A DNA stretch of 64,000 nt from Actinomadura craniellae (GTDB lineage: Bacteria > Actinomycetota > Actinomycetes > Streptosporangiales > Streptosporangiaceae). Within the stretch, counting starts at the first letter, position 1; every line of letters begins with the position of its first letter. The position numbers were made by a program, and so were the translations under genes. Below are positions 19,743 to 52,471 of the stretch, one piece after another. The stretch covers positions 1 through 64,000 of the forward strand of contig NZ_QLYX01000002.1 in NCBI RefSeq assembly GCF_003289645.1, given 5' to 3'. The notes below the pieces were generated by a model. The model was not told the DNA's origin. It made no database searches and saw only the letters and a list, made by a program, of their open reading frames with translations.

Positions 19743-19800
19743 GTCCTCGGCGGCGACGAGGTCGGCGTGGGTCTCGATCGGGCCCTCCCTGCGAGGTGGT

Positions 19801-19890
19801 GGGGCCGGCCGGGGAATGGGGGCGCGAGCTGCGAATCATCGCTGTAAAGGCGGGTTCCGGAAGTCGCACCGAAGTCCCGCGGCCGGCCCC
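19801..19890 (-). ncRNA. Structured RNA candidate upstream of the TROVE/vWA gene
   Basis: The 90 bases are closed by a perfect 10-bp inverted repeat, GGGGCCGGCC with GGCCGGCCCC. Inside, on the minus strand, are a GCGGG/CCCGC stem with an inner UUCGG/CCGGA helix and a GCGA-UGAU-UCGC hairpin, giving a three-way-junction shape. It could be a 5' UTR element or a Y-RNA-like partner of the TROVE protein. High GC makes chance stems common, so this is weak evidence without covariation. A second hairpin (ATGTAC/GTACAT, 19946-19973) lies further upstream. The rest of 19743-20049 shows no gene. Confidence 0.25.
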
Positions 19891-20049
19891 GGCACGGTAA
19901 CACCGGGCCCGCACCCCGGTCCCCCGGTTTTTCGGCGGGTCGGACATGTACGGATCTCCACCGGGTGGTACATCCGGCGCGAGCCCGCACCCGTGCCGGC
20001 GTCCCGGACGGAACCGGCCGCCCGGGCACGGGGGCGGGCCCGGTGCGGG

Positions 20050-23599: not shown

Positions 23600-23679
23600 A
23601 TTATTTACCGGGTTTTCGGTTAGGCTTCCGGCGCGACGGAGCGCCCGCCCCCGGGCCCCGTACGGCGACGGAGGTGCGG

Positions 23680-25392
23680 GTGGGCGCTGCAAGAGCGCCG
23701 GGACGACGGGTCCTGGTAGGAGCGATCAGGAGCCGGGGCCGAGACGTGACCCTGAGCACGCTGCTGGCCACCGGCCACCAGGCCGGCGAGGCCCTGGTCC
23801 CCGTGGTGATCGGCGTGGTGATCGACCAGGCGGTGACCGGAGGCGACACCGGCGCGCTGGTGCGCTGGCTGGTGGTCCTCGGGCTGGTCTTCGCCGGGCT
23901 GTCCTACAGCTTCCGGTTCGGCGCCCGGTTCCAGGAGAGGGGCGCCGAACGCGCCGAGCACGCCCTCCGGCTACAGATCACCGAGCGGGTGCTGGACGCC
24001 CGCGGCGGGGCCGAGCAGGGCCGGCTGCCAGGCGCCCTGGCCAACATCGCCACCGGCGACGCCCGCCGGGTCGGCGCGGTGAACCTGGTGCTGCCCGCCG
24101 GGTTCTCCGCGATCGCCGGCCTGCTGGTCGGCGCCACCATGCTGCTGCGGGTCTCGGTGCCGCTCGGGCTGCTGGTCTTCCTCGGCCTGCCGCCGGTGCT
24201 CTGGCTGGCCCACCGGCTGGGCCGGCCGCTCGAACGGCGCAGCGAGGACGAGCAGGAGCGCGCGGCGCACGCCTCCGGGGTGGCGGCCGACCTGGTCACC
24301 GGGCTGCGGGTGCTCAAGGGAATCGGCGCGGAACGCGCGGCGGTCGACCGCTACCGGCGGACCAGCCAGGACTCGCTGGCGGCCACCCGGCGAGCCGCCG
24401 GCGCCCAGGCCTGGCTCGGCGGCGCCATGGTCACCCTGACCGGCGTGTTCATCGCGGCGGTCGCGCTGGTCGGCGGGCGGCTGGCCGCCGCCGACGAGAT
24501 CAGCGTCGGGGAGCTCGTGGCGGCCGTCGGGCTGGCGCAGTTCCTGCTCACCCCGCTGTCGATCCTGTCGTGGGTGAACGGCGAGCTGGCCCAGGCGCGC
24601 GCGTCCGCCGGCCGGATCGCCGAGTTGCTGGCCGCCCCGCCGGCCGTGCCCTCCGGCACCGCCGCACCGCCGGAGCCCGTCCGCGGCCGGATCCGGCTCG
24701 CCGGCGTCTCGCACGCCGCGCTGCGCAACCTGGACCTGGAGACCGCCCCGGGCGAGATGCTGGGCGTGGTGGCCCGCGACCCCGCCGCCGCCACCGCCCT
24801 GCTCGCCTGCCTGGGCCGCGACCTGGACCCCGCCGCGGGCGAAGTGGAGCTGGACGGGGTATCGCTGCGCGACCTGGATCCGGCCGACGTGCGCGCCGCC
24901 GTCCTGGTGGCCGGGCACGACGCCGAACTGTTCGAGGGCACCCTGCTCGACAACGTCACCGCCTGCCGTCCCGAACCGGCGGCCGAGACCGTACCGGAGG
25001 CCGTGACGGCGGCGATGCGGGCGGCGGCCGCCGACGAGGTGGCGCGGGCGCTGCCCGAGGGGACGGCGACCCCGGTCGCCGAGCGGGGGCGGTCGCTGTC
25101 CGGCGGGCAGCGGCAGCGGGTGGCGCTGGCCCGGGCGCTGGCCGCCGACCCCCCCGTCCTGGTCGTCCACGACCCGACCACCGCGGTCGACGCGGTGACC
25201 GAGGCCCGGATCGCGGCCGGGCTGCGCGAGGCCCGGCGGGGCCGCACGACCATCGTGGTGGCCACCAGCCCGGCCCTGCTGGCCGTCGCCGACCGGGTGG
25301 TGGTCGTCGAGGACGGCGCGGCGGTCGCCGAGGGCTCCCATTTCGACCTGGTCCGCGACCACGCGGGTTACCGATCGGCGGTGTTGTCGTGA
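23680..25392 (+). CDS. ABC half-transporter A with degenerate nucleotide-binding site
   Basis: 570 residues: six-helix transmembrane domain (about 1-310), then a nucleotide-binding domain. The signature [15 protein letters not shown] is intact, but the Walker A lysine loop is missing (VVARDPAAATALL), Walker B reads VLVVHDPTTAVD, the Q-loop glutamine is lost (VAGHDAELF) and the H-loop histidine is replaced (VVATSPALL). It can therefore only contribute the signature to its partner's site. GTG at 23680 has GGAGG 5 bases upstream; an in-frame GTG lies two codons earlier. It overlaps the partner gene by 4 bases. The iron box and the NRPS neighbourhood suggest siderophore export, or import in the manner of IrtAB. 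Confidence 0.88.
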   Translation: MGAARAPGRRVLVGAIRSRGRDVTLSTLLATGHQAGEALVPVVIGVVIDQAVTGGDTGALVRWLVVLGLVFAGLSYSFRFGARFQERGAERAEHALRLQITERVLDARGGAEQGRLPGALANIATGDARRVGAVNLVLPAGFSAIAGLLVGATMLLRVSVPLGLLVFLGLPPVLWLAHRLGRPLERRSEDEQERAAHASGVAADLVTGLRVLKGIGAERAAVDRYRRTSQDSLAATRRAAGAQAWLGGAMVTLTGVFIAAVALVGGRLAAADEISVGELVAAVGLAQFLLTPLSILSWVNGELAQARASAGRIAELLAAPPAVPSGTAAPPEPVRGRIRLAGVSHAALRNLDLETAPGEMLGVVARDPAAATALLACLGRDLDPAAGEVELDGVSLRDLDPADVRAAVLVAGHDAELFEGTLLDNVTACRPEPAAETVPEAVTAAMRAAAADEVARALPEGTATPVAERGRSLSGGQRQRVALARALAADPPVLVVHDPTTAVDAVTEARIAAGLREARRGRTTIVVATSPALLAVADRVVVVEDGAAVAEGSHFDLVRDHAGYRSAVLS

Positions 25393-27158
25393 CGGCTGTC
25401 GCGCAGGAGGAACGCGAGCTGCTGCCCCGGGCGAGCGGGGCACGGGTCCGCGCCACGGTGGGCGAGCTGCTGCGCCCGCACCGGGGGCTGCTGGTGGCCG
25501 GCTTCGGGATCCTGGTGGCGTCCACCGCGATCGGCCTGCTCATCGCGCCCCTGCTCGGGTACGTCGTCGACCTGGTGGTCGACGGGCGGCCGCCCGACGC
25601 GATCACCACGCCGGTGGTGCTGCTGGTCGCGGTCGCCGTCGCGCAGGGGATGACGGGCGCGGCCGGCGTGTCCCTGATCGCCCGGCTCGGCGAGGGGGTG
25701 CTGGCGACGCTGCGCGAGCGTTTCGTGGAACGTGCCGTGCACCTGCCGCTGGAACGGGTGGAGGCCGCCGGATCCGGCGACCTGTCCTCCCGGGTCACCA
25801 ACGACGTGTCGGTGATCGCCGAGGCGGTGCGCCGGGCACTGCCCGAACTGGCCCGGTCCGCGCTCACCATCGTGCTGACCCTGGTGGGGCTGGCCGTGCT
25901 GGACTGGCGGTTCATGCTCGCCGCGCTGCTGGCCGCCCCGATCCAGATCAACACCGTGCGCTGGTACCTGCGGAACGCACCGCAGGTGTACACCGCGCAC
26001 CGGGTCGCGGTCGGCGCCCAGCAGCAGCAGTTGCTCGACACGGTGGGCGGGGCGGGCACGGTCCGCGCGCTGGGCCTGGCCGACGAGCACGTGGCGCGGG
26101 TGACCCGGCGCTCGCTGTCGGCGGTGGACCTGGCGCTGCGCGGCATCCGGCTGCTGACCCGCTTCTACGCCCGGCTCAACCTCGCCGAGTACATCGGGCT
26201 CACCGCCGTGCTGGTGACCGGTTTCCTGCTGGTCCGCGGCGGCCACGCCAGCATCGGCACCGCCACCGCCGCCGCGCTGTACTTCCACAGCCTCTTCACC
26301 CCGCTCAACCTCGCCCTCGGCCTGGTGGACGACGCCCAGTCCGCCCTGGTCAGCCTGGCCCGCCTGGTCGGCGTCACCGACCTCGCGCACGAGGCGCCCG
26401 CGGCGGCGCCGGCGCGGCCGGAGTCCGCGGGGGTGCCGGTGAAGCTGGCCGGGGTGGGGCACGCCTACCGGCCGGGGCACCCGGTGCTGCACGGCGTCGA
26501 CCTGGAGATCGCCGCGGGCGAGCGGGTCGCGCTGGTCGGCGCCAGCGGGGCCGGGAAGACCACGCTGGCCAAGCTGATCGCGGGCGTCCACCGGCCGACC
26601 GCCGGCTCGATCTCCCTGGGCGGCGTCGAGCCCGGGGACGGGCGGACGGCCGCGCTGATCACCCAGGAGGTGCACGTCTTCGCCGGGACGCTCGCCGACG
26701 ACCTGCGGCTGGCCCGCCCGGACGCCACCGACGAGGAGCTGTCGGCCGCGCTCGACCGGGTCGGCGCGCTGGACTGGGTGCGGGCCCTGCCCGAGGGGCC
26801 GCGGACCGTGGTCGGCGAGGGCGGCCACCGCCTCACCGTGGCCCAGGCCCAGCAGCTCGCCCTGGCCCGGCTGGTGCTCGCCGATCCCCCGGTCGCCGTG
26901 CTCGACGAGGCCACCGCGGAGGCCGGTAGCGCCGGCGCCCGCGAACTGGAGCTCGCCGCCGACCGGGCGCTGGCCGGCCGGACCGCACTGATCGTGGCGC
27001 ACCGCCTCACCCAGGCCGCCGCCGCCGACCGCGTGGTGGTGCTGGACGCCGGCCGGGTCGTCGAGAGCGGCGCCCACGACGAGCTGGCCGCCCGCCCCGA
27101 CGGGCGGTACGCCGCCCTCTGGCGGGCCTGGTCCGACACCCGCCGGGACGAGGGGTAG
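25389..27158 (+). CDS. ABC half-transporter B with intact Walker sites
   Basis: 589 residues: transmembrane domain (about 25-330) and a nucleotide-binding domain with Walker A GASGAGKTT, Q-loop ALITQEVHVF, Walker B VAVLDEATAEAG and H-loop LIVAHRL. Its signature reads LTVAQAQQ instead of LSGGQ, and the D-loop aspartate is lost. The defects mirror those of the first half-transporter: together they form one complete ATP site (this Walker A with that LSGGQ) and one dead site. GTG start overlaps the previous stop (GTGA). A 19-bp hairpin downstream ends the unit. Confidence 0.9.
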   Translation: MTAVAQEERELLPRASGARVRATVGELLRPHRGLLVAGFGILVASTAIGLLIAPLLGYVVDLVVDGRPPDAITTPVVLLVAVAVAQGMTGAAGVSLIARLGEGVLATLRERFVERAVHLPLERVEAAGSGDLSSRVTNDVSVIAEAVRRALPELARSALTIVLTLVGLAVLDWRFMLAALLAAPIQINTVRWYLRNAPQVYTAHRVAVGAQQQQLLDTVGGAGTVRALGLADEHVARVTRRSLSAVDLALRGIRLLTRFYARLNLAEYIGLTAVLVTGFLLVRGGHASIGTATAAALYFHSLFTPLNLALGLVDDAQSALVSLARLVGVTDLAHEAPAAAPARPESAGVPVKLAGVGHAYRPGHPVLHGVDLEIAAGERVALVGASGAGKTTLAKLIAGVHRPTAGSISLGGVEPGDGRTAALITQEVHVFAGTLADDLRLARPDATDEELSAALDRVGALDWVRALPEGPRTVVGEGGHRLTVAQAQQLALARLVLADPPVAVLDEATAEAGSAGARELELAADRALAGRTALIVAHRLTQAAAADRVVVLDAGRVVESGAHDELAARPDGRYAALWRAWSDTRRDEG

Positions 27159-28536: not shown

Positions 28537-31500
28537 TCACGCGCCGGGCGGCAGGGTCGAGAGCGGGCGGGCGGGGTCGGCGGTGGCGGCGGCCAGCAGG
28601 CGCAGCAGGTCGCCGGTGATCCGGCGGGCGGTCGCCGGGTCGAACAGGTCGGTGTCGTACTCCAGCAGGCACTCCACCGGGTCGTCGCCGCGAGGCTCGT
28701 AGAGGCTCAGCGCGAGGTCGGCCCGGACCGCGCCGGTGTCCACGGGCTCGAAGCCGCCGCCGAGGTCGGCCAGGCCTGCGGCCTCGTGCTGGATGATCAT
28801 CACCTGGGGGAACGTCCGGGGCAGGTCGAGGTCGGCGGCGACCGCGTCGAACGGGACGTCCTGCCGGTCGAGGGCGGCCAGCGTGGTCTCGCGGACCCGG
28901 CCCAGGAGGTCGCCGAACGAGGGGTCGCCCCCGGTGTCGGTGCGCAGCACGACGGTGTTGAAGAAGCAGCCGACCAGGTCGGTCAGCGCTTCCTCGGAGC
29001 GGCCCGCCGTCCGGGCGCCGATCGGCAGGTCCGGGCCCGCGCCGTACCGGGTGAGCAGCGCGGCGAAAGCGGCATGGACCACCATGAACAGGCTCGTCCC
29101 GCTCTGCCGGGCGAGCCGGTCGGCGGCCCGGTGCAGGTCGGCGTCGAGCTCGAACTCCACCAGGTCGGCGCGGCCGCCCGGTGCGGCCGGGCGCGGCCGG
29201 TCGGCGGGCAGGGGCAGCTCGGCGGGCAGGTCTCGCAGGGTCCGGCGCCAGTAGCCGAGCTGCCGGCCGCCGGGGCTCTGCCGGTCGGCGAGGTCGCCGA
29301 GCAGGTCGTGCGCCCACACCGTGTAGTCCGCGTAGCCGACGGGCAGCGGCGCCCAGTCGGGGGCGCGGCTGGCGTGGCGGGCCCGGTACGCCTCGGTCAG
29401 GTCGCGGGCCAGCGGCACCGTGGACCATTCGTCGGCGGCCTCGTACCGCAGCGTCAGCAGCAGCGCCCGCGCGCCCGACCCGTCGGTGAGCAGCCGGGCC
29501 CGCAGCGGCGCGTCCGGCGCGGACCGGGCCAGTTCCGCGATCCGCCCGTCCAGGTCCGCGCACTCCTGAAGCTCCAGTTCCGGTGCGGGCGCCGGCCGCT
29601 GGACGACCCGCCCCGCCTCCTCGGCGAGGACGGTGCGCAGCGGCTCGTGCCGGGCGGCGACGTCGGCCAGGGCCGCCGCCAGGGCGGCGACGTCCAGGTC
29701 ACCGGGCAGGCGGAACGCGAACGCCAGGTCCCAGGCGGACCGGGGCCGGGCCCACTGGGCCCGCTGGACGGGCGCCGCGGGCAGCACCCCGGGACGGGCC
29801 ACGGGACGCAGCGCCGGCCGGGCCGCCGCTCCCCCGGCGCCCTCCAGCAGGGCGGCCAGCCCGGCCACGGTGGGCGCGTCGAAGACGTCCCGCAGGGCCG
29901 GGTCGGCGTCGAGGTCCGCGCGGATCCGGCCGAGCAGCCGCATCGCCGCCATGGAGTGGCCGCCCAGTTCGAAGAAGTTGTCGTGCACCCCCACCTCGGG
30001 CAGGTCGAGGATCTCGGCGAACAGCCCGGCCAGGTCATGCTGCAGCGGGGTCTCCGGCCGCGCCCCGCCGGCGCCGGCCGACCAGTCGGGAGCGGGCAGC
30101 GCGCGGCGGTCGAGCTTGCCGTTGGGGGTCAGCGGCAGCGGCCCGTCCAGGACCACCACCGCGGCGGGCACCATGTAGTCGGGCAGGAACCGCGCCACGT
30201 GCGCGCGCACCTGTGCCGGGTCGGCGGAGGCCCCGGGGGCACCCGCCGGAACCACGTAGCCGATCAGCCGGGCCGACTCGCCCTGCCGGTCGACCACAAC
30301 GGCCGCCTGCGTCACGTCCGGGTGCCCGACCAGCGCCGCCTCGATCTCGCCGGGCTCGATCCGGTAGCCCCGGACCTTCACCTGGTCGTCGCTGCGGCCC
30401 AGGAAGTCCAGAATGCCCTCGGGGCGCCAGCGGGCGCGGTCACCGGTGCGGTACATGCGGGTGCCGGGCGGGCCGAAGGGGCAGGCCACGAACCGCTCGG
30501 CGGTCAGGCCCGGCCGGCCCAGGTAGCCGCGGGCCAGCCCGCGCCCGGCGATGTAGAGGTCGCCGGCGACGCCCGGCGGGACCGGGCGCAGCCGCTCGTC
30601 CAGGACGTAGGCGGTGGTGTTGGGGTCGGGGCGGCCGATCGGGACGGGGCCCGTCCAGCCGGGCTCGGCGTCCCAGAGGGTGGAGTTGACCGTGGCCTCG
30701 GTCAGCCCGTACGCCCCGAACAGCCGCAGCCGGGCCGCCCACCGCCCGATCAGGTCGGGCGGTACCGTCTCGGTCCCCACCAGCAGGGTGGCACCCTCGG
30801 GCAGCTCGCAGTTCGGTGGCAGCGCCCCCACCAGGGACGGCGGCAGGATCATGGTGGTGATCGCCTGCTCGGCCAGGAAGTCGCACAGCTCCTTGCCGGG
30901 CAGCCGGACCTCCTCGGGGGCCAGCACCAGCCGGCCGCCCCAGCACAGCGCCATGGACAGCTCGAACACCGCCACGTCGAAGCCCACCGAGGCGAACTGG
31001 AGCACGTGGCTGTCGCGGGTGAGGCCCATCCGGTCGGTCGCGGTGGCGACCAGGCTGGCGATGCCCTCGTGCGGGACCACCGCGCCCTTGGGGCGGCCGG
31101 TCGAGCCCGAGGTGTAGATGACGTAGGCGGCCTGGTCGAGGTCCACCGGGACGCCCGGGTCGTCGTCGGCGAGCCCGGCCAGCTCCGCGGCGACCGCAGG
31201 GTCGTCCAGCAGCAGCGGCGAGGAGCCGGAGGAGCCGGGAACGCTGCCGGCCACCTCCCCAGTGGCGACGACGACGCTCGCCCCGGAGTCGGCCAGCATG
31301 TACGCCAGCCGGTCCGCGGGGTGCTTGAGGTCCAGCGGGAGGTAGGCCGCGCCGAGCTTGAGCGCGCCGAGCACGGTGGCGACCATGTCCGCGGTGCGCG
31401 GCACCGCCACGCCGACCACGTCCTCGGCGGCCACGCCGCGCCCCGCGAGCAGCCGGGCGATCCGGTTGGCCCGGGCGTTCAGCTCCGCGTAGGTGACGGT

Positions 31501-34500
31501 GCGGGAGCCGTCCACCACCGCGACGGCCCCGGGGCGCTCGCGCACCCGCTGCTCGAACATCGTGTGCAGCGGCAGTTCCGGCACCGGCCGGGCGGTGGCG
31601 TTGAACTCCGCCAGCACCCGGTGCCGCTCGGCGGTGTCGAGCAGGTCGAGTTCCCGCACCGGGCGGTCCGGGTCGGCCGCGACGGCGGCGACCAGCCGGT
31701 TCAGGCGGGCGGCGACGTCCTCGGCCGCCGCGCGGTCGAACACGTCGTGGCGGTACTCGATCACGCAGCCGACCCGTCCGCTGTCATCGCGCTCGGCGAA
31801 GCTGAAGACCAGGTCGAACTTGGCGGTCCGGATCTCGACCGGCTCGTCGGTCACGGTCAGCCCCGGCAGGGCGAACCCGCCGGCGGGCCGGTTGCGGTAG
31901 CCGACCATCACCTGGAAGAGCGGGTTGCGGCCGGGCGAGCGGACCGGGTTCAGCTCCTCCACCACGGCCTCGAACGGCACGTCCTGGTGGGAGAAGGCGG
32001 CCAGGTCCGTCTCGCGGACCCGCTCGACCAGTTCGGCGAAGGTCGGGGCGCCCGACACGTCGGCGCGCAGCACCAGCGTGTTGACGAAGAACCCGACCAG
32101 CTCGTCCAGGGCCTCGTCGGTACGGCCCGCCACGGGGGCGCCCAGCGGGATGTCGGTGCCGGCGCCCAGCCGGTACAGCAGGGCGGCGACCGCGGCCTGA
32201 AGCACCATGAACATGCTCGCGCCGGTCCGGCGGCCCAGCTCGCGCAGCCCCCGGCAGGCGGCCGGGTCGAGCTCGATCTCCAACTCGCCGCCGGCCGTGC
32301 CGGGGCGGGCGGCCGGGGTGCGGCCCCCGGGCAGTTCCAGCTGTTCGGGGGCGCCGGCCAGCGCGTCCCGCCAGTAGGAGAGCTGCCGGGCGCCCAGGCC
32401 GTCGGGCAGCCAGCCGCCCGCCGGGTCCGCGCCGAGCAGGTCGCGCTGCCAGAGGGCGTAGTCGGCGTACTGGACCGGCAGCGGCTCCCATGCGGGGGCC
32501 CGGCCGGCGCGCCGGGCCGTGTAGGCGGCGGCCAGGTCGTGCAGGAAGGGCCCGTCGGACCACTCGTCGGTGGTGATGTGGTGCAGCAGCACGACGAGCA
32601 CGTGCTCGTCGATGGCGACCCGGAGCACGGTGGCCCGCAGCGGGACCTCAGCCGTCAGGTCGAAGGGGCGCTCCACCAGTTCCTCGACCAGGCCGGGGGC
32701 GTGGTCGAGGACGTCCACGACCGGGTCGGCAAAGTCCAGGACGCGCTGGTAGGGGTGCCCGTCGCGCTCACCGAACACCGTGCGCAGCGCCTCGTGCCGG
32801 CCCGCGACGTCGGCGAGCGCGGCCCGCAGCGCGGCCACGTCGAGCTCGCCGCGCAACCGGAACGTCAGCGGGAAGTTGTAGGCCGCCGAGGCCCCTTCGA
32901 GCTGCTGGATCACCCACAGCCGGCGCTGGGCGTACGACAGCGGCAGCTCGGCCGGGCGTTCGGCGGGCACCAGGGCGGGCCGGGCGGGGGCGGTCCGCTC
33001 GGCCGCGCGCACCGCCAGTTCGGCGGGGGTGGGCGCCTCGAACAGGTCGCGGATGGCCAGTTCGGCGGGCAGCGCCGCGCGCGCCCGGCTGACCAGCCGG
33101 GTGGCCAGCAGCGAGTGGCCGCCCAGGTCGAAGAAGGAGTCCTCGGCGCCGACCCGCTCCAGCCCGAGGACCTCGGCGAACAGCGCGCACAGCGTCTCTT
33201 CGGCCGGGGTGGCCGGCGGGCGGCTCACCGGGGCCGCTGCGACGTCGGGGGCGGGCAGCGCCCGCACGTCGAGCTTGCCGTTGACGGTCAGCGGCAGCCG
33301 ATCCACCGGCACCAGCGCGGCGGGCACCATGTAGCCGGGCAGCCGGGCCTTGAGGTGGTCGCGCAGCGCGGTGCCGGCGAGCTCGGCGCCACCGGCCGGG
33401 ACGACGTAGCCGATCAGGCGGGTGACCCCGCCCGGGCCGGCGGTGTCGGCGACCACGGCGGCGTGCGCCACCGCGGGGTGCTCGTCAAGCACCGCCTCGA
33501 TCTCGCCCAGCTCGACCCGGTAGCCGCGGATCTTGACCTGGTCGTCGGTGCGGCCCAGGAAGTCCAGGTTCCCGTCGGGCCGCCGGCGGACCAGGTCGCC
33601 GGTGCGGTACATCCGGGCGCCGGGCGCGCCGTGCGGGTCGGCGACGAACCGCTCGGCGGTCAGGCCGGGCCGCTCGTGGTAGCCGCGGGCCAGGCCGACG
33701 CCCGCGATGTACAGCTCGCCGGGGGCGCCGGGCGGCACCGGGCGCAGCGCGGAGTCGAGCACGTAGCCGCGGGTGTTCCAGATCGCGCGCCCCACCGTGG
33801 GGGTGGCGCTGTCGCCGGTGCCGGCGCCGAGGGTGTTGATGGTGTACTCGGTCGGCCCGTAGAGGTTGTAGCCGAACGTCCCCTCGGTGTCGCGCAGCCG
33901 GGCCCACACCGTCTCGGAGACGGCCTCGCCGCCGAGCAGGACCAGCACCGGGCGGTGCCGGCCCGGGCCGTCCGCCAGCAGGCCCTCCTCGATCAGGTGG
34001 TGGGCGTAGGTGGGGGTGACGTTGACGACGTCGACGCGGTGCCGGTCGCAGTAGGCCACCAGCGCCTCGGCGTCGCGGCGCAGTTCCTCGTCGCAGACGT
34101 GCACCTCGTGGCCCTCGACGAGCCAGAGCAGTTCCTCCCAGGACATGTCGAAGGCGAAGGAGACGGTGTGCGCGATGCGCAGCCGGCGTCCCCCGGCCGC
34201 GGCAATCGCCGGCTCGAAGATCGCCTCCCGGTGGTTGAGCTGCATGTTCGTCAGCCCCCGGTACGGGGTGACGACGCCCTTGGGACGGCCGGTCGAGCCG
34301 GAGGTGTAGATCACGTACGCCGGGTGTTCCAGCCGGCCGGGCCGGCCGGGGGCGAACTCCGCCCGCTCGGCCGCGGTGAGGTCGGTGCCGGGCAACCCGC
34401 CCAGTTCGGCCGCCACCGCGGGGTCGTCCAGGGGCAGCGTCGCCGGGCCGCCGGCACCGGGCAGGCCCAGCCGGGCCGCCACGGCGGTGGTGGTGAGGAC

Positions 34501-37500
34501 GCAGCCGGGAGCGGTGTCCTCGATCATCAGGCGCAGCCGTTCGGCGGGGTGGTCGAGGTCCAGCGGCAGGTACGCGGCGCCGGTGCGCAACACCGCGAAC
34601 AGCGCGACGACCATGTCGGTCGAGCGCGGCAGCGCCAGCGCCACCACCCGCTCCGGGCCGGCCCCGCGGGCGAGCAGCAGCCGGGCGAACCGGTTGATCC
34701 GGGCGTCCAGCTCCGCGTAGGTCAGCCGCTCGTCGCCGCAGACCAGGGCCACCTCGGCCGGGGTGCGGGCGGCCTGCTCGGCCAGCAGCTCGGCGATGGT
34801 CTCCGTTCCGGCCGGGCGGGCGGTGGACCCCCACTCGGCGGCGAGCAGCGCGCGCTCTGCCGCGGGCAGCAGGTCGAGCGTGCCCACCCGGGCCGCCATG
34901 CCGCCGGCCAGCCGCTCCAGCGCGGTGACGTAGCGGGCGAGGAGGGTGTCGGCGGCCGTGGCGTCGAAGACGTCGGTGCGGTGGATGAGCATCACCCGCA
35001 CCCGCTCCCCCGGGGTCACCACCAGGGTGAGCGGGTAGTGGGTGGCGTCGACGCCGCCCGACCCGACGATGCCGTGCCGGGCCCGCAGATCGGCGGCGGC
35101 GTTCTCGTCGTGGAAGTTCTGCAACACGTACAGGGTGTCGAACAGCAGGTCGTGCCCGGCGGCGCGCTGGATCTCGCCCAGCCCCAGGTACTCGTGCGGC
35201 ATCATCGCCGCCCGCTCGGCCTGCACCCGCCGCAGCAGGTCCAGCACCGGTTCGCGGGGGTCGAGGGTGATCCGGGCCGGGACGGTGTTCAGGAACAGCC
35301 CGATGGTGTTCTCGACATCCGGGATCTCCGGAGGACGGCCCGCCACGGTGGTGCCGAACACCACGTCGTCGCGGCCGGTCAGGCCGGCGAGCACCAGCCC
35401 CCAGGCGGCACTGAACGCGGCGTTGGGGGTCAGGCCGTGCCGCCGGAGCCCGGTCCGCAGCCGGTCGGCGAGCCCGGCGGGCAGTTCGATCCGGCGCTGC
35501 TCGGGGATGGCCGGCTCGGGGTCCCGGCCGGCGGGGCCCGCCAGGGTCGGCTCGGCCAGGCCGGCCAGCGCGTCCCGCCACGCGCCCGCGGCGGCGCCGG
35601 CGTCCTGGCGGGACAGCCAGGTCAGGTAGTCGCCGTAGGAGCCGGGCCGGGGCAGGCCCCGGTCGTCGCCGGCGCGCTCGTACAGGGTGAACAGCTGCTC
35701 CAGGAACAGCGCCGCCGACCACCCGTCCCACAGGATCAGGTGGTGGCTGAGCACCAGGCGGTCGCGCCCGTCGCCCAGCCGCAGCAGCATCAGCCGGAAC
35801 AGCGGCGGGGCGGCCAGGTCGAACCGGCGCCGCCGGTCGGCCGCCAGCAGTTCCGTGACGCGGGCCGCGCGCTCGGCCTCGCCCAGCCCGGACAGGTCGA
35901 TCTCGGTCAGCGGCGTCTCGGGTGCGGCGGCGACGAACTGCACCGGGCGGGAGAGGCCGTCGCCGGTGAACCCGGCGCGCAGGCCGGGGTTGCGGGCCAG
36001 CAGGGCGGTCAGCGCGGCGCGCAGCCGGTCGGCGTCGACGCGGCGCTCGAAGTCGAAGACGTCCTGTGCGGTGTAGACGTCCAGGGCGGTCTGGTCGTAC
36101 CCGGCGTGGAAGTACAGGCCCTCCTGGAGCGGGGACAGCGGCCAGATGTCGGCGAGGGGGCCGGGGCACACCCGCTCGACCGTGTCGATCTCGTCCTGGG
36201 AGAGGTCGAGCGCGGTGAGGTCGGAGGGGGTGAGCCCGCCGGCCCCGCCGGCGCCCGCCGCCAGTTCGCGCAGCGCCGCGAGCCAGCCCTCGGCCAGTTC
36301 CCGGACGTCGCCTGCGGCGAGGGCGCCCTCGGGCCAGGTCCAGGTGGCGCGCAGCCGGGGGCCCTGCGGGGTGTCCTCGCAGACCGCGTCGATCTGCAGG
36401 GCGTGGGCCAGGCCCAGCCCGGCGTCGCCGGGGAGGGCGAGCGCGTCGGACTCGGGGGCGGGGGTCCAGTCGTCCTCGCGGGCGGCGGGGAACCGCCCGT
36501 AGTAGTGGAACAGGACCTGCGCCCGGGCCGCCCCGGCCAGCAGCGGGGCGGTCTGCGCGTTGAGGTGGCGCAGCATCCCGTGGCCGATTCCGCCGTCGGG
36601 CACCTCGCGGAGCCGTTCCTTGACGTGCTTGAGGGTGCCGGGCGCGTCCGGCCGCGACTCCAGCCGGACCGGCTGCACGCTGGTGAACCAACCGATGGTG
36701 CGCGCCAGGTCGAGCCCGTCGGCGACGTCCTCGCGGCCGTGCCGCTCCACGTCGACGAGCAGGTCGCCGGGCTCCCCCGGGCGCCGGGTGACGGCCAGCC
36801 GGAACGCGGCCAGCAGCACGTCCGTGACGTCGCCCCGCACCGCGGCGGGCACCTCGGTCAGCAACGGCAGCGTGGCGGCGGCGTCCAGCCGGACCTCGTG
36901 CCGCCGGGCCGGGCCACCGGCCGCCGGGGGCCGGCCCGGGACCAGGCCCGGGATCAGGTCGGCGCCGGGGGCGAGGGTGCGCGCCCAGTGTTCCAGTTCG
37001 GCGAGCCGGGCCGGGCTCTGCGCCTGCTCGACCATCGCCCGGGCGAAGCCGCGCAGCGAGGTGCCGACGGGGTCCAGTTCCGGGACGCGCCCGGCGGCGA
37101 CCGCCGGCCAGGCGGCGGCCAGGTCGCCGAGGAGGATGCGCCAGGACACCCCGTCCACCACCAGGTGGTGCACGGCCAGGATCAGCCGGCCGGGCCGGTC
37201 GCCCCGGTCCAGCCAGACCGCCTGGACCATGGTTCCGGCGTCGGGGTCGAGCCGGTCCGCGGCGGCGTCGAACTCGGCGGCGACGAGCGCGTGCAGGGCG
37301 GCGTCGTCCAGGCCGGTGGCGTCCGCGCGCCGCAGCAGGTCGGCGGCCCGGACGCTGCCGGCGGGCCGGGTCTCCAGCGACCAGAGCAGGCCGCCGATCC
37401 GGGTGAGTTTCAGCCGCAGCCCGTCGTGCCGGTCGAGCACGGCCTGGAGCACGGCGGCCAGCGCCGCCTCGTCCGCGCCCGCGGGGACGCGCAGCAGGTT

Positions 37501-40500
37501 CGGCAGGGTGTACCGGCCGATCTCGCCGCCCAGCTCGCGCAGCCAGTGCACCACCGGCAGCAGGGGCACCTCGCCGATGCCGTCGGGGTCGGGCGCCGGG
37601 GCCGCGACGGCCTCCTCGGGGCCGGTGGCGGCGGCCAGCGCCGCGGGGGTGCGGTGCCGGAACACGTCACGGGGACTGATCGCGTACCCGCGGCGGCGGG
37701 CCTTGCCGGCGACCGCGATGGACAGGATGCTGTCGCCGCCGAGCACGAAGAAGTCCTCGTCGACGCCCGCCTCGGGCAGTCCGAGCACCTCGGCGAAGAT
37801 CTCGCAGAGCGCGCGTTCCCGGTCGTCGCGGGGAGCGCGCGCCCGGTCGTCGCGCGGGGCGCGCTCCGCGGCCGGGGCGGGCAGGGCGGCGCGGTCGAGC
37901 TTGCCGCTGGGGGTCAGCGGCAACTCCGCCAGCGGGACGATCGCGGCGGGCACCATGGGTTCGGGCAGGGTCGCGGCCAGCGCGGCGCGCAACGCCCCGG
38001 GGTCCGGGGTCGCGCCGGGGGCCGGGACGACGTAGCCGACGAGCCGGGCCGCTCCGGGCCCGTCCTGGCGTGCGATCACCGCGGCCCGGGCCACGCCCGG
38101 CTCGCGGAGCAGGGCGGCCTCGACCTCGCCGGGCTCGACCCGGTTGCCGCGGATCTTGATCTGGTGGTCGGTGCGTCCCAGGTACTCCAGGTCGCCCGCG
38201 GCGGTCAGCCTGACCAGGTCGCCGGTGCGGTACATCCGGGTGCCGGGCGGGCCGAAGGGGTCGGCCACGAAGCGCTCGGCGGTCAGCCCGGCGCGGCCGT
38301 GGTAGCCGCGGGCGAGCTGGGCGCCGGCGAGGTAGAGCTCACCGGGGACGCCCGGTGGCACCGGCCGCAGGCAGCCGTCCAGGACGCGCAGCGCGGTGTT
38401 CCAGACCGGGGCGCCCAGCGCCGGTTCCCGCCCGCCGGCGCCGGGCCAGTAGGTGACCTGGACGGCCGCCTCGGTGGGCCCGTAGAAGTTGTCCATCGGC
38501 ACGCCGGTCAGCGCCAGCCAGCGGTCGGCCAGGTCGCCGGTGAGCGCCTCGCCGCCGCTGGAGGCCCAGCGCAGGCTCGCCGCCCAGCCGGGGTCGGCGG
38601 TGACCTCGTCGGTGGACAGGAACGCCTCGATCATCGAGGGGACGAAGGTGATGGCGCTGACCCGCCGGTCGCGGATCAGCCCGGCGAGGTATGCCGGGTC
38701 GCGGTGGCCGCCGGGCTCGGGCAGCACCATCCCGGCGCCGGCGTACAGCGGCCAGAAGATCTCCCAGACGGAGGTGTCGAAGCCCGGGGAGGCCAGCGGC
38801 AGCATCCGGTCGGGGGTGTCCAGCGGCATGCGGTCCTGGGTCCAGGCGAGCTGGTTGACGATCGCCCGGTGGGAGACCGGCACGCCCTTGGGCCGGCCGG
38901 TGGACCCGGAGGTGTAGATCAGGTACGCCGGGTGGTCGGGCCGGGCCGGCACCGGCTCCGCGGCCGGCTCACCGGGCCCGCCGTCGACCGTCATGACGTC
39001 GACCGGCACCGCGGGCAGGGTGACGCCGGGGACGGTGACCAGGAGGCGGGCACCGGAATCGGCGATCATGTACGCCAGCCGGTCGGCCGGCAGGTCGACG
39101 TCGAGCGGCAGGTAGGCGGCGCCCGCCCGCAGCACGCCCAGCAGGGCCACGACGAGCTCCGCCGAGCGCGGGACGGCGACGGCGACGACCTCCTCGGGGC
39201 CGGCGCCCCGGGCGGCCAGCCGGCCGGCCAGTTCCGCGGCGCGGCGGTCGAGCCCGGCGTAGGTCAGCTCCGCGTCACCGCAGACCACCGCGACCGCGTC
39301 CGGGGTGCGGGCCGCGCGGTCGGCGACGGCGGCGGCCAGCGTGGTGTCGGGCACCGGGCGGGCGGGGCCGGTGAGGGCGGCCCGGACCCGGTCGAGCCCG
39401 GACCCGGTCAGCACTTCGGTGCGGGCCACCGGGCGGGCGGGGTCGGCGGTGATCGCGGCCAGCACGGCGGACAGCCCCTCGGCGACGTGGTGCACGGTGC
39501 CGGGGTCAAGCCGGTCGGCGTCGTACTCCAGCCGCAGCTCCAGCCGTCCCCCGGCGCCGGGCAGGACGACCAGGGCGAGCGGGTAGTGCGAGGCGTCCAC
39601 GACCTCGAAGCCGGTGATCTCGACGGTGCCGCCGGGGTCGCGCGGCGTGCCCTGCGCGGGGTAGTTCTCGACGACCACCAGGGTGTCGAACAGCTCGCCG
39701 AGCCCGGCCAGCCGCTGCACCTCCGGCAGCCCGACGTACTGGTGGTCGAGCAGCCGTGTCTGTTCCTCCTGGACCCGGTCCAGCACCGCGCCCAGGGCGT
39801 CGCCCGGGCTCCACCGCAGCCGGATCGGCAGCGTGTTGATGAACAGGCCCGCCATCGACTCGATGCCCGTGACCTCGGCCTCGCGGCCGGAGACCGTGCT
39901 CCCGAACACCACGTCCCGGCGGCCGGTGAGGCGGCCGAGCAGCACGCCCCAGGCCCCGTGCAGCACGCCGCTCAGGGTCAGGCCGCGCTCCCGGGCCCGG
40001 GCCGTGAGGGCGGTGCCGGCGCCGCCCGGCAGGTCGACGCGCAGGCGCTCGAACCGGGACGGCACCCGCCCGGGTTCGAGTTCGGGCACCAGCCGGGTCG
40101 GCCCGTCCAGCCCGTGCAACGCGTCCCGCCAGGCGCGGTGCGCCGCGGTCCGGTCGAGCCCGGCCAGGTGGGTCAGGTAGTCGCGGTAGGGGGTGACCGG
40201 CGGCATCCGGGGCGGCTCGCCGCCCGGCGCGTACAGCGCCATCAGGTCCCGCAGGATGATCGCCACCGACCAGCCGTCGGCGATGATGTGGTGGTGGGTG
40301 AGCAGCAGCCGGTGCCGCTCCGGCCCGAGCCGCAGCAGCGCGCAGCGCAGCAGCGGCGGCCGGCCCAGGTCGAACCGCTCGGCCCGCTCGGCCGCGGCCT
40401 CGGCGCGCAGCCCGGGCTCCGGGTCGGCCAGGTGTGACAGGTCCGCCTCCCGCCAGGACGGTTCGGCGCCGTCGGCGACGAACTGCACGGCCCGGCCGTC

Positions 40501-45862: not shown

Positions 45863-46876
45863 TCAGCGAGCCAGCAGCGGCAGCAGCTGGTCGAGCGCGT
45901 ACGGGATGCTCAGCACGGTCATGAAGGACAGCGCCGCGCCGACCGGCGGCTCCTCGTAGGGAACGAACAGGGCCCGGTTCTCCTGGGCGACCTTGAGGGT
46001 CTTGTAGACCCGGTCGTTCTTGACGTTCTTCTCGGCGGCGGGGTCGCTGTTCAGGAAGACCAGCCGGTCGACCTCGACCAGGTCGAGCCGCTCGGAACCG
46101 ATCTCCGCCGCGTACTCCTTGCCGACCGCCTGGACGATCTTGGGGGGGACGGCGAAGCCGAGCGACTTCATGAAGTCGACCTTGGGGTCGGTCGGGGCGA
46201 ACACGGCGTACTTGCCGGGCTCGTAGGCCTCGACGACGGCGACGGTCTTGCCGGCCCACTGCGGGTACTGCTTGCGGGCGTCGGCGAACCGCTTCTCGAT
46301 ACCGGCGATCAGGTCGTTCATGCGCTTCTCTTCGCCGAGGGCGCGACCGATCACCCGGGACATCTCCTGCCAGGGCATGGCGTAGTCGTCGTACTTGGGA
46401 GACTGCCCGACGGTCGGGGCGATCTTGGAGAGCTTCTCGTACTGGCCCTTGTTCATGCCCGAGTACTGGGCGATGATCAGGTCCGGCCGGAGCGCGGCGA
46501 TCTTCTCGATCTGGAAGTCGTCACGCTCGCCGACGATGGTGGGCGGGGTGGACCCCCACAGCGGCTGCGTCCAGGGCCACTTGCCGTACGGGCGCTCCTT
46601 GAACCAGTCGATGGCGCCGACCGGCTTCACCCCGAGGGCGAGCACCGCGTCGTGGTCGCTCAGGCCGAGCGTCACCACCCGGGTGGGCTTGGACTTGATC
46701 TCGGTGGTGCCGTACTTGTGCTGGATGCTCACCGGGAAGGCGGCGCCTGCCGGGGAGGCACCGCCGGTGGCGGCCTTCTCCTCCTCGCCGCCACAGGCGG
46801 CCAGCGCCAGGGCGAGGACGAGCGCGAGCAGTACCGCCACGAAACGTGGGGCGGCGAGCCGGGGGGATATGGACAT
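45863..46876 (-). CDS. Ferric-siderophore ABC transporter substrate-binding lipoprotein
   Basis: 337 residues. It starts with a lipoprotein signal peptide whose lipobox is LALAACGG (Cys near 27), then a FepB/FhuD-type type III binding fold: [23 protein letters not shown] and [14 protein letters not shown]. It captures the ferric siderophore outside the membrane for the FecCD/ATPase importer encoded divergently. ATG at 46876 has AGAGGAAC upstream, and an iron box lies 61 bases before it. The gene is 58 bases upstream of the NRPS on the same strand, so uptake protein, synthetase and MbtH probably share one iron-controlled transcript. Confidence 0.93.
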
Positions 46877-46936
46877 CGGTTCCTCTTCGGGGATCGGGGG
46901 CACGGTCCAATCGTTCGTGGACCAGCCAAGCGATAC

Positions 46937-46992: not shown

Positions 46993-47011
46993 TAAGGTAT
47001 GCCTGCCCTAA
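46993..47011. promoter_or_regulatory. Iron box before the FecCD permease genes
   Basis: TAAGGTATGCCTGCCCTAA is an iron-box match that overlaps a TAATAT element (47009-47014) usable as a -10 for the plus-strand permease unit. It also covers an upstream ATG at 46999, which argues that this ATG is not the permease start. Confidence 0.72.
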
Positions 47012-47031
47012 TATCCGCAGATAGGGTTTTC

Positions 47032-48081
47032 GTGACCATAACCAAGAATTCGCCGCCCTTGGAGATACCCCCGGCGACCCGAGCCCGAACCGTACGGCTG
47101 ACGCTGCTGTTGCTCGCGGCGGTGGCGGCGCTGGCGCTGATGTGCCTGCCGTCGATCGCGGTGGGCAGCCGGGCGGTACCGCTCGGCGATGTGGTGCAGG
47201 TCCTGACCGGTTCCGGCGATCCCCGGGTCGACGCGATCGTCTGGGGCGTCCGGGTGCCGCGCACCCTGCTCGGCCTGCTCGCCGGCGCGGCCCTGGGCCT
47301 GGCCGGCGCGGTGATGCAGGCGCTCACCCGCAACCCGCTCGCCGACCCCGGCCTGATGGGCGTCAGCGCGGGCGCCGCCTTCGCCATGGTGCTGGCCATC
47401 AGCCTGTTCGGGCTGTCCTCACTGTACGGCTACATTTGGTTCGCCTTCGCGGGCGCGCTGGCCGCCAGCGTGGTCGTGTACGTGCTCGGCGGGATGGGCC
47501 GGAGCGGTTCGACGCCGGTCAAGCTGGCACTGGCCGGAGTCGCCGTCACCTTCCTGCTGACCTCGATCACCCGGGGCATCGCGCTGGTCGACCCGGAGGC
47601 ACTCGACCGCTACCGGTTCTGGTCGGCCGGTTCCCTGGCCGGCCGCGGTACCGGCGTGCTGCTCCAACTCCTGCCGTTCGTGGCCGTCGGCGTGGTGCTC
47701 GCGCTGGCCCTGGCCCCCGCGCTCAACAGCCTCGGCCTGGGCGACGACGTGGCCGCGTCGCTGGGCCGCCGGGTAGGCCTGATCCGGTTGCAGGGCGCCC
47801 TGGCCGTGACGCTGCTCACCGGTGCGGCGGTGGCGGTGGTCGGCCCGGTCGTTTTCGTCGGCCTGGTGGTGCCCCACGCCGCCCGCGTGATCACCGGCCC
47901 GGACCACCGCTGGCTGCTGCCGTTCTCGATGGTCCTGGCCCCGCTGCTGCTGCTGGCCGCCGACACCCTCGGCCGGGTGGTGGCCCGGCCCGAGGAGATC
48001 AACGTGGGCATCGTCGCCGCGTTCCTCGGGGCCCCCTTCTTCATCCTCCTGGTCCGCCGCCGCCGGCTGGCCGAGCTGTGA
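47032..48081 (+). CDS. FecCD-family iron-siderophore permease 1
   Basis: 349 residues, about ten membrane helices of the BtuC/FecCD fold. Motifs: GVRVPRTLLGLLAGAALGLAG, MQALTRNPLADPGLMGVSAGAA, and the C-terminal VGPVVFVGLVVPHAAR, which contacts the ATPase. GTG at 47032 is preferred over the ATG at 46999 because that ATG lies inside the iron box and next to the -10 element; the mRNA leader would then be very short. It overlaps the second permease gene by 4 bases. With its partner it forms the heterodimeric inner-membrane channel for the ferric siderophore. Confidence 0.92.
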   Translation: MTITKNSPPLEIPPATRARTVRLTLLLLAAVAALALMCLPSIAVGSRAVPLGDVVQVLTGSGDPRVDAIVWGVRVPRTLLGLLAGAALGLAGAVMQALTRNPLADPGLMGVSAGAAFAMVLAISLFGLSSLYGYIWFAFAGALAASVVVYVLGGMGRSGSTPVKLALAGVAVTFLLTSITRGIALVDPEALDRYRFWSAGSLAGRGTGVLLQLLPFVAVGVVLALALAPALNSLGLGDDVAASLGRRVGLIRLQGALAVTLLTGAAVAVVGPVVFVGLVVPHAARVITGPDHRWLLPFSMVLAPLLLLAADTLGRVVARPEEINVGIVAAFLGAPFFILLVRRRRLAEL

Positions 48082-49133
48082 GCGCCGCCACCGGCCTGCG
48101 GCGGCCCGCCGTCCGGCTGTCCCGCCCGCCCGTCTCCGCGGTGGTGCGCCCGCGGGTCCTGCTGACCTGCCTGGGCCTGGCCGTGGCCGTCTTCGCGGTG
48201 TGCTGCGCCGGGCTGAGCATCGGTGACTACCCCGTCCCGCTCGCCGACGTGGTCCCCGCGCTGTGGGGGGCCGGCGACGGCGGCTCCGTGTTCATCGTGC
48301 AGGAGCTGCGGCTGCCCCGGGTGCTGGTCGGCCTGCTCGTGGGGGCGGCGTTCGGCGTCTCCGGAGCGATCTTCCAGGCCATGACCCGCAACCCGCTGGC
48401 CAGCCCCGACATGATCGGCATCAGTGCCGGGGCCGACACGGCCGTGGTCGCCGGGATCGTGCTCGGCGTCGGCGCGGGGCTCGGCGCCCCGGCCCTCGGC
48501 CTGCTCGGCGCGCTGGCCAGCGCGGCACTGATCTACGTGCTGGCCTGGCGGCGCGGTACGACCGGCTACCGGATCGTGCTGGTCGGGATCGGCATCTCCT
48601 GGATGTGCGTCAGCGCCACCGAGTGGCTGCTGACCAAGGCCCGGCTGCACCAGGCCCAACAGGCGCTGGGCTGGCTGGTCGGCAACCTGAACGCCCGCGG
48701 CTGGGAGCACGTGCGCCCGCTGGCCCTGGCCCTGGCCGTGCTGCTGCCCGCCGCGCTCCTGATGACGCACCGGCTGCGGGCGCTGCAGTTCGGCGACGAG
48801 GTCGCCGCGGGGCTGGGCGTCCCGGTGCAGCGGGCCCGGCTGGTCCTGGTGCTGGTCGGGGTCGGCCTGATCGCCTTCGGCACCGCGGCGGCCGGGCCGA
48901 TCGCCTTCGTGGCGCTGGTCGCGCCGCAGGTCGCGCTGCGGCTGGCCGGCACGGCCGGGCCGCCGCTGCTGACGTCCGCGCTGACCGGTGCGCTGATCGT
49001 GTCGGCCAGTGACCTGTTCGCCCAGCGGTTCTTCGACAGCGACCTGCCGGTCGGAGTGGTGACGGGCGTGCTGGGCGCGCCGTTCCTGCTGTGGCTGCTC
49101 GCCCGGACCAACCGTTCCGGATCAGGAGGCTGA
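48078..49133 (+). CDS. FecCD-family iron-siderophore permease 2
   Basis: 351 residues with the same FecCD helices: [42 protein letters not shown] and [19 protein letters not shown]. The GTG start overlaps the previous stop (GTGA), and its own stop is 1 base before the ATG of the ATPase gene. The open frame extends upstream inside the first permease gene, but that part is a shadow. It pairs with the first permease to form the transmembrane channel. Confidence 0.93.
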
Positions 49134-49134
49134 A

Positions 49135-49956
49135 ATGTCCCACTCACCGCACCGGCCCGAGCTGCGGGCGCACGGCCTCCGGCTGGGTTACGACGACCGG
49201 GTCGTGGTCGACGGCCTCGACCTGACGCTCCCGCCCGGCAAGATCAGCGTGATCGTGGGCGCCAACGCCTGCGGCAAGTCCACCCTGCTGCGGGCGCTGG
49301 CCCGGCTGCTGGCGCCCCGGTCGGGCGAGGTGCATCTGGACGGGCAGGCGATCCACTCGCTGCCCACCCGGCAGGTGGCGCAGCAACTGGGCATCCTGCC
49401 GCAGCAACCGGTCGCGCCCGAGGGGCTGACGGTGCTCGACCTGGTGGGTCAGGGCAGGGCGCCGCACCAGTCGTGGTGGCGGCAGTGGTCGGCCGGCGAC
49501 GAGCACGCCGTCGCGGCGGCGCTGGAGGCCACCGGGATGCTCGAACACGCGCACCGCCCGGTGGACGAACTGTCGGGCGGGCAGCGGCAGCGGGCGTGGA
49601 TCGCGATGGCGGTGGCCCAGGGCACCCCCGTCCTGCTGCTCGACGAGCCGACGACCTTCCTGGACCTCGCGCACCAGATCGACGTCCTCGACCTGATCGT
49701 CGATCTCAACCGGCGGGAGGGCCGGACGGTGGCGATGGTGCTGCACGACCTGAACCAGGCCTGCCGCTACGCCGACCACGTGATCGCGATGAAGGCCGGC
49801 CGCGTCGTCGCCGAGGGCCCGCCGGCCGGGATCGTCACCGGCGAGCTGGTGGAGGAGGTGTTCGACCTGCGCTGCCAGGTCGTCCCGGACCCGGTCAGCG
49901 GCACTCCCCTGGTCATTCCGATCGGCCGCCACCACACCGCGCCCGCCCCCCTGTGA
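49135..49956 (+). CDS. Iron-siderophore importer ATPase (FepC-like)
   Basis: 273 residues. Walker A is [11 protein letters not shown] near residue 43, the signature is [15 protein letters not shown], Walker B is [12 protein letters not shown] and the H-loop is MVLHDLNQA. These are the hallmarks of FepC/FhuC-type ATPases that power FecCD importers. AGGAGG lies 5 bases before the ATG, and the previous permease stop is 1 base upstream, so it is the last gene of the iron-controlled importer unit. It is convergent with the monooxygenase gene. Confidence 0.95.
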
Positions 49957-51523: not shown

Positions 51524-52471
51524 ATGCGGGTCGTCATGTTCGGCTACCAGACCTGGGGCCACCGCACGCTGCAGGCCCTCGTGGACGCCGGCCACGAAAT
51601 CCCCCTGGTGGTGACCCACCCGCCCAGCGACCACGCCTACGAGAAGATCTGGGACGACTCGGTGGCCGACCTCGCCGCCGAGCACGGCCTGCCCGTCCTG
51701 CTGCGCAACCGCCCCGACGACGAGGAGCTGATGAGCCGGCTCAAGGAGGCCGACCCCGACGTCATCGTCGCCACCAACTGGCGGACCTGGATCCCGCCGC
51801 GCATCTTCGACCTGCCCCGGTACGGCACCCTCAACGTGCACGACTCGCTGCTGCCCAAGTACGCCGGCTTCGCCCCGCTGATCTGGGCGCTGATCAACGG
51901 CGAGAAGGAGGTCGGCGTGACCGCGCACATGATGACCGAGGAGATGGACGCGGGCGACGTCGTCCTCCAGCGGGCGGTGCCCGTGGGCGACACCGACACC
52001 GCCGCCGACCTGTTCCACCGGACCCTGGAACTGTTCGGCCCAATCACCGTGGACGGGCTGGAGCTGATCGCCTCCGGCCGCACCGACTGGGCCCGGCAGG
52101 ACCGTTCCCAGGCCAGCTTCTTCCACAAGCGGTCCATCGAAGACAGCCGGATCGACTGGACCTGGCCCGCCGAGGACCTCGACCGGCTGATCCGCGCCCA
52201 GTGCGACCCCTACCCCAACGCCTTCACCCACCGCGGCGGCGAGCGCATCCGCGTCATCAAGGCGTCGGTGTCCAAGGGGATCTACGGCGGCACCCCGGGC
52301 CGTATCTTCATCCGCGAGGGGGACGGGGTGGTGATCGTCGCCGGGGCCGAGGCGCGGCGCGGCCGCAGCCACGGCCTGGTCATCGAGCGGATCCGGCTCG
52401 ACGACGGCACCGAACTGCCGGCCACCGAGTACTTCACCACCATGGGCGGCTACCTCACGAGCCACCCGTGA
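51524..52471 (+). CDS. N5-hydroxyornithine formyltransferase-like protein (methionyl-tRNA formyltransferase fold)
   Basis: 315 residues. The N-terminal formyltransferase domain carries the catalytic Asn-His-Asp set in LNVHDSLLPKYAGF and MTEEMDAGDVV, followed by a C-terminal Fmt-like barrel. Dedicated copies of this kind (such as CchA of coelichelin) use formyl-tetrahydrofolate to formylate N5-hydroxyornithine, creating the hydroxamate. Its iron box, the divergent ornithine hydroxylase and the NRPS support that role over initiator-tRNA formylation. GAGGAG precedes the ATG. Its stop overlaps the M20 peptidase start by 4 bases. Confidence 0.9.
   Translation: MRVVMFGYQTWGHRTLQALVDAGHEIPLVVTHPPSDHAYEKIWDDSVADLAAEHGLPVLLRNRPDDEELMSRLKEADPDVIVATNWRTWIPPRIFDLPRYGTLNVHDSLLPKYAGFAPLIWALINGEKEVGVTAHMMTEEMDAGDVVLQRAVPVGDTDTAADLFHRTLELFGPITVDGLELIASGRTDWARQDRSQASFFHKRSIEDSRIDWTWPAEDLDRLIRAQCDPYPNAFTHRGGERIRVIKASVSKGIYGGTPGRIFIREGDGVVIVAGAEARRGRSHGLVIERIRLDDGTELPATEYFTTMGGYLTSHP

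Follow-up and report, generated by a model that had tools for sequence, protein, structure and literature searches.

The window analysed here is a stretch of 64,000 nucleotides from Actinomadura craniellae (contig NZ_QLYX01000002.1, positions 1 to 64,000). It holds a siderophore locus built around a large gene for a nonribosomal peptide synthetase (NRPS) with the domain order partial C - A1(N-MT) - T - E - C - A2 - T - E - C - A3 - T - C - A4 - T - Cterm (Table 1). An MbtH-like ORF, for which no NCBIfam match was obtained, lies directly downstream of the NRPS gene. The putative ornithine N5-monooxygenase scored below the cut-off of the NCBIfam N-monooxygenase model. Further, a gene for an ArgE/DapE-family deacylase (52201-53727, plus strand), which could trim an acylated siderophore precursor, is found after the formyltransferase gene. 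A 909-aa ORF (17218-19947, minus strand) with a strong match to ARPP-2 (E 2e-123) is apparently unrelated to the siderophore cluster.

Table 1. Features of the siderophore locus in the window.
Feature	Position	Strand	Basis or remark
Two ABC exporter half-transporters, probable siderophore export	23674..27158	+	
MbtH-like protein, 73 aa	28277..28498	-	Translation inspected by eye
NRPS, four modules, 5755 aa	28537..45804	-	Open frame
Terminal C domain, aa 5299-5755, no acceptor module after it	28540..29910	-	PF00668, AlphaFold2, Foldseek
His5673-Glu5674, invariant HE in place of C7-region QN	28783..28788	-	Alignments
C3 motif RYEAADEWS, aa 5453-5461	29422..29448	-	Translation
A4 domain, code DVFILGAVNK	30205..31467	-	Limits approximate
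Module-4 C domain, aa 4247-4716, canonical HHITTDEWS	31657..33066	-	Comparator paralogue within the protein
A3 domain, code DMENLGLINK	33385..34662	-	Limits approximate
Module-3 C-domain motif HHLILWDG, one residue longer than HHxxxDG	35716..35745	-	Translation
Siderophore-binding protein	45863..46903	-	Peripla_BP_2
Fe-siderophore importer	46999..49956	+	Two FecCD permeases and ATPase
FecCD permeases	46999-48081 and about 48144-49133	+	
Importer ATPase	49135-49956	+	
Putative ornithine N5-monooxygenase, 447 aa	49985..51328	-	Sequence MSPSYEHVRDLVGIGFGPSNLALAIAL, partly by eye
Formyltransferase, 315 aa, for N5-formyl-N5-hydroxy-ornithine	51524..52471	+	PF00551 and PF02911

At the N-terminus of the NRPS (45100-45804, minus strand) the starter C domain is cut down to its C-terminal part, and A1 is combined with an N-methyltransferase (N-MT). 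In related synthetases described below the starter C domain is complete and the N-MT is absent; the two arrangements seem to be alternative modes of N-terminal capping which replace each other. Two more very large NRPS loci are present in the same genome (G000:C12:389000-417400 and G000:C1:195000-226000, with frames of 9543 aa, and of 6792 plus 3567 aa), and the two largest NRPS frames of these loci terminate in thioesterases.

The C-terminal end of the synthetase was the main subject of this work. Pfam model PF00668 matched the terminal C domain at 28552-29757 (E 3.3e-48). An ordinary C domain has an acceptor T domain downstream; here the NRPS stops at 28537 and the MbtH-like ORF comes next. 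The earlier note had reported that the motif HHxxxDGWS is altered in this domain, with Arg5453-Tyr5454 in place of His-His, and this was confirmed by translation and by the codons at 29448-29422 (CGG TAC GAG GCC GCC GAC GAA TGG TCC, with TAC for Tyr). HHxxxDG with its catalytic second His is therefore absent from the terminal domain (RYEAADE); the remaining C and E domains of the same NRPS retain a His-rich motif. A change from His to Tyr is a single transition (CAC, TAC).

The structure prediction that the earlier note had named as a check returned an intact domain: the AlphaFold2 model, for which ordinary C domains served as relatives, has a complete C fold with a pLDDT of 89.1 and a pTM of 0.87. 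In Foldseek searches the model came closest to the C domains of DhbF and FscG (TM 0.86-0.87; 0.87 to 5u89 / DhbF), with somewhat lower values for the teicoplanin X domain (4tx2; TM 0.83) and for HtmB2-CT (8z0q; TM 0.81). The last of these is also a bacterial terminal C-type domain, from a Streptomyces assembly line, but shares only 28% identity. X domains of glycopeptide synthetases are C folds of the terminal module with the catalytic His replaced (HRxxxDD), and depart from LCL domains at the equivalents of His126, Arg278 and Asn335. A function as an X-like platform that recruits a trans-acting tailoring enzyme would fit the replaced His and the TM value of 0.83. However, ordinary C domains match better, the residue is Tyr and not Arg, and no P450 was detected among the neighbouring ORFs scanned with Pfam (a subset of the ORFs). 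Moreover, an X domain recruits P450s and is followed by a thioesterase, whereas none stands behind the domain studied here. With RYEAADE in place of HRxxxDD, the candidate was rejected, and such a platform is hardly to be expected. The CT domains of fungal NRPSs (TqaA type) are likewise C-like terminal domains, which release the chain by intramolecular aminolysis and take no acceptor substrate. They are restricted to fungi, however, and match the terminal domain weakly in sequence (E 4e-10); they retain the catalytic His (HxxxDxxS), where the terminal domain has Tyr, and this assignment was likewise dropped.

Relatives of the terminal domain were sought in genomes of the same family (first 299, later 343), in 395 genomes of the same class and in 121 Streptomyces genomes. 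Counted were distinct terminal C domains that stop within about 50 residues of the stop codon (n = 38); wherever the entire gene was read, they stood at the C-terminus of a four-module NRPS. In a tree that included internal C domains as well, all terminal ones grouped into one clade with an SH-like support of 0.999. The second position of the motif is occupied by Tyr in 30 of the 38 domains, by His in six and by Pro in two. Among the Tyr members, 28 read HY, one DY and one, that of the window, RY. Arg at the first His was seen in the window only, the sole other departure at this position being Asp in one member. Tyr at the second His is thus the norm of the clade, and Arg at the first His a peculiarity of this strain. 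The motif is unusual beyond chance, given that HH was present in 433 of 439 readable background C and E domains and HY in none. All 36 aligned members have D-x-W-S and, in the C7 region, a His-Glu pair; two members added later show HY, DEWS and HHE. A scan of named genome contigs yielded mainly C domains of Nocardia and Rhodococcus with HH, and no member of the clade.

The HH and HP forms all belong to one genus in the tree and are nested within the HY forms; judged from this topology, Tyr is the ancestral state throughout the terminal clade. The framing of the earlier note, a loss of histidines in this particular protein, is therefore misleading. Because six members have HH (L104, L107, L110, L111, L115 and L230) and two have HP (L105 and L229), neither His nor Tyr at this position is strictly bound to function; the rest of the clade signature is retained in these eight. 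The tolerance of Tyr, His and Pro at this position also argues that no general base is required there. Many clade members (e.g. L124, L125 and L137) end in RRNDS or RRN at the stop codon; this tail probably represents an in-frame translation of the next gene's Shine-Dalgarno sequence and not a protein motif.

Selection on the domain was estimated from close pairs, which gave dN/dS values of 0.24-0.49 in the terminal domain, compared with 0.15-0.37 in the module-4 C domain. As these values are well below 1, the terminal domain is under purifying selection and is not decaying. Decay and sequencing error were both ruled out by the frame that is open to its end, by the MbtH-like ORF after it, by the clade-wide nature of the change and by the selection. 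Mean identity across the clade was 62% for the terminal domain, 70% for the module-4 C domain and 79-81% for the A domains; the terminal domain thus evolves faster than its neighbours, under slightly more relaxed selection. Such behaviour would suit what we regard as the strongest rival to a dedicated release function, also raised by the earlier note: a catalytically silent domain that shields or positions the peptidyl-T4 thioester while a diketopiperazine (DKP) closes spontaneously. The variation at the position of the catalytic His (Tyr, His, Pro) points the same way, and spontaneous loss of DKPs from dipeptidyl thioesters, known in other NRPSs, provides a precedent. Against a non-catalytic holder speak the low dN/dS, the invariance of D-x-W-S and His-Glu, and the fact that the terminal domain is kept at the end in every member read. 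We consider it rather unlikely. Probably, the terminal domain is not a broken C domain but one specialised in release by ring closure.

The earlier note had also stated that a thioesterase is missing, and this held: no PF00975 gene is present within the window, the nearest on the contig lying at about 383 kb. As thioesterases do exist elsewhere in the genome of A. craniellae, a separate (trans) thioesterase or hydrolase might free the chain, with the terminal domain as a relic, in the manner inferred for kineochelin and cahuitamycin assembly lines without cis thioesterase (papers on both). A relic, however, is at odds with the purifying selection on the domain and its intact modelled fold. Given the lack of a candidate gene in the window, trans release was set aside as very improbable.

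Set against the module-4 C domain from the respective protein, the terminal domain showed further differences. The C7 core RNPLF(Q), present in the module-4 paralogues, is missing in the terminal clade, which has HE where ordinary domains mostly have QN; several additional fixed positions also differ. Background domains with HE at the equivalent position have Asn before it and retain HH. According to Rausch et al. (PMC1894796), the catalytic residues include the second His and Asn335 (VibH numbering). In the terminal domain the second His is changed, and so are both candidate Asn positions in the C7 region, for which reason the equivalence of His-Glu and Asn335 is not certain in the alignments.

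The predicted substrate codes allowed the synthetase to be linked to a known siderophore. The window codes are DVWILGAVNT (A1) and DTWTSGFVQK (A2), together with those listed in Table 1 for A3 and A4. Across the clade, those of A3 and A4 hardly vary. The A2 code is variable: that of the window (domain at about 37600-38900, minus strand) fits no substrate that could be named, and elsewhere in the clade a Ser code, DAWDFGCVQK, DALAFGVVQK and DPLTFGVVQK occur. A literature search with the ten-letter codes gave no match. The clade member L201 was assigned to CP029197.1, the genome of Streptomyces venezuelae ATCC 10712 (PMC8788739, PMC7357120), at 7.72-7.74 Mb, inside BGC29 (7,704,299-7,757,163), to which foroxymithine is attributed as product. 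Foroxymithine was detected in strain NRRL B-65442, with a tentative match to the gene cluster (PMC9769785), and foroxymithine mutants lose that siderophore (PMC11005364). The codes of L201 are DVWIVGAVNK, DVWHFSLVDK, DMWNLGLINK and DVFILGAVNK for A1 to A4, of which the second is the classical code for Ser, the residue that foroxymithine has at this position.

We take foroxymithine to be acetyl-formylhydroxyOrn - Ser - cyclo(hydroxyOrn - formylhydroxyOrn), in which the hydroxyOrn side chain bears Ser. It would thus end in a DKP of hydroxy-ornithine and formyl-hydroxy-ornithine, a composition that presumably also agrees with the formula C22H37N7O11. From this order of residues we infer that A1 and A4 read as N5-formyl-N5-hydroxy-ornithine and A3 as N5-hydroxy-ornithine, in agreement with the code shared by A1 and A4, from which that of A3 differs. 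The window has the following traits of the foroxymithine type: (i) four modules, a terminal C domain and no thioesterase in the window; (ii) codes of A1, A3 and A4 that are the same as, or nearly identical to, those of the foroxymithine synthetase; (iii) a putative ornithine N-monooxygenase and a formyltransferase in the cluster. The terminal domain of L201 reads HYLAVDEWS plus HHE, and its module-3 C motif is altered as well. Absent from the window is Ser at position 2 (DTWTSGFVQK versus DVWHFSLVDK). As A2 lacks the Ser code, and as other members of the clade vary here too, the window was placed in the clade and not identified as foroxymithine itself. It further differs from L201 in having an N-MT, a truncated starter C domain, two E domains and RY for HY; in L201 the starter C domain is full-length, the N-MT is absent and no E domains could be seen. 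The N-methyl group, the A2 code and the E domains of modules 1 and 2 are points against a foroxymithine-like DKP end.

A different end would result if the terminal residue were unformylated hydroxy-ornithine, and the domain, or chemistry alone, formed a cyclic hydroxamate with a six-membered ring, such as albisporachelin has (PMC6024995). That compound likewise has four residues, with N-methyl-formyl-hydroxy-ornithine at position 1 (PMC6024995), and cyclic hydroxy-ornithine termini are common among actinobacterial siderophores. On the other hand, A4 has the code of A1, a residue that needs its formyl group to bind iron, while A3 has another; codes of identical type are found at the S. venezuelae foroxymithine locus, and module 4 lacks the methyltransferase that albisporachelin would require. 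The common code of A1 and A4 and the match to the foroxymithine codes led us to drop this quite unlikely alternative.

The extra residue in the HHxxxxDG motif of the module-3 C domain is Trp. A motif of the HHLILWDG type was found in nearly all members whose gene spans module 3 (window, L201, L124-L143); two Streptomyces members carry the variant HHLVAWDGWS. The pattern occurred in five of the 121 Streptomyces genomes, three of the five being clade members. The same motif precedes DMWNLGLIN-type A domains in three other, scabichelin-like NRPSs of Streptomyces (L192-L194). This C domain would couple residue 2 to hydroxy-ornithine, and its altered motif may be a sign that the side-chain hydroxylamine is acylated.

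Release of DKPs by a terminal C domain is an accepted idea for this class of siderophores (erythrochelin, foroxymithine). EtcD, the erythrochelin synthetase of Saccharopolyspora erythraea, presumably also has four modules and a terminal C domain, and forms a DKP between residues 3 and 4; its product differs, as we take it, in being acetylated and not formylated. C domains that act as release domains have been reviewed (PMC11546977).

Taken together, we propose, with a probability of roughly two in three, that the terminal domain evolved from an ordinary C domain and serves a foroxymithine-type siderophore synthetase as its dedicated release domain, closing a DKP between residues 3 and 4. Of the two release modes considered by the earlier note, DKP closure is thus the one favoured by the near-identical codes, the same type of NRPS and the terminal domain at the foroxymithine locus, where the product ends, as we assume, in a DKP. 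In the proposed route, A1 would load N5-formyl-N5-hydroxy-ornithine, to be N-methylated and epimerised, and A2 a residue without a named code, also epimerised; A3 and A4 would load N5-hydroxy-ornithine and N5-formyl-N5-hydroxy-ornithine, respectively. The altered module-3 C domain would couple residue 2 to the side-chain hydroxylamine of hydroxy-ornithine and so leave its alpha-amine free for ring closure. The terminal domain would hold the tetrapeptidyl-T4 thioester at its donor side, and this alpha-amine would attack the T4 thioester of its own chain, yielding the DKP and free enzyme. With nucleophile and thioester both part of the same molecule, a C domain's acceptor-side parts and its catalytic His would have become dispensable; Tyr would have replaced His, and the invariant His-Glu would have arisen in the C7 region. 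An active homologue with the same substitution and normal condensation activity, regarded by the earlier note as counter-evidence, is matched in part: L201 places a Tyr homologue in a producing system, but its function there would be release and not ordinary condensation.

A more specific version, which we offer tentatively as a possibility, is that of a new C-domain active site. The His of HHxxxDG would have been given up for Tyr and the acceptor-side C7 deleted, and the invariant His-Glu would have taken over catalysis or alignment of the intramolecular attack. This site would be paired with a module-3 C domain remodelled by the inserted Trp (HHxxxxDG) for acylation of the side-chain hydroxylamine. 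The openly licensed papers searched contained no mention of the exchange for Tyr, of the changed C7 or of the module-3 motif that goes with them, and no experiment on the terminal domain was found.

What the second His of HHxxxDG does is still a matter of debate. The present clade, in which release domains naturally carry Tyr and close relatives carry His or Pro, makes the question directly testable, the more so as it has a genetically tractable, producing member in S. venezuelae. In addition, the signature of a terminal HYxxxDEWS plus HHE, and of HHLILWDG before an A domain with the code DM[EW]NLGLINK, predicts tris-hydroxamate siderophores that end in a DKP. By this measure, the predicted type would be encoded in 26 of 343 genomes of the family (about 8%) and in seven of the 121 Streptomyces genomes sampled (6%).
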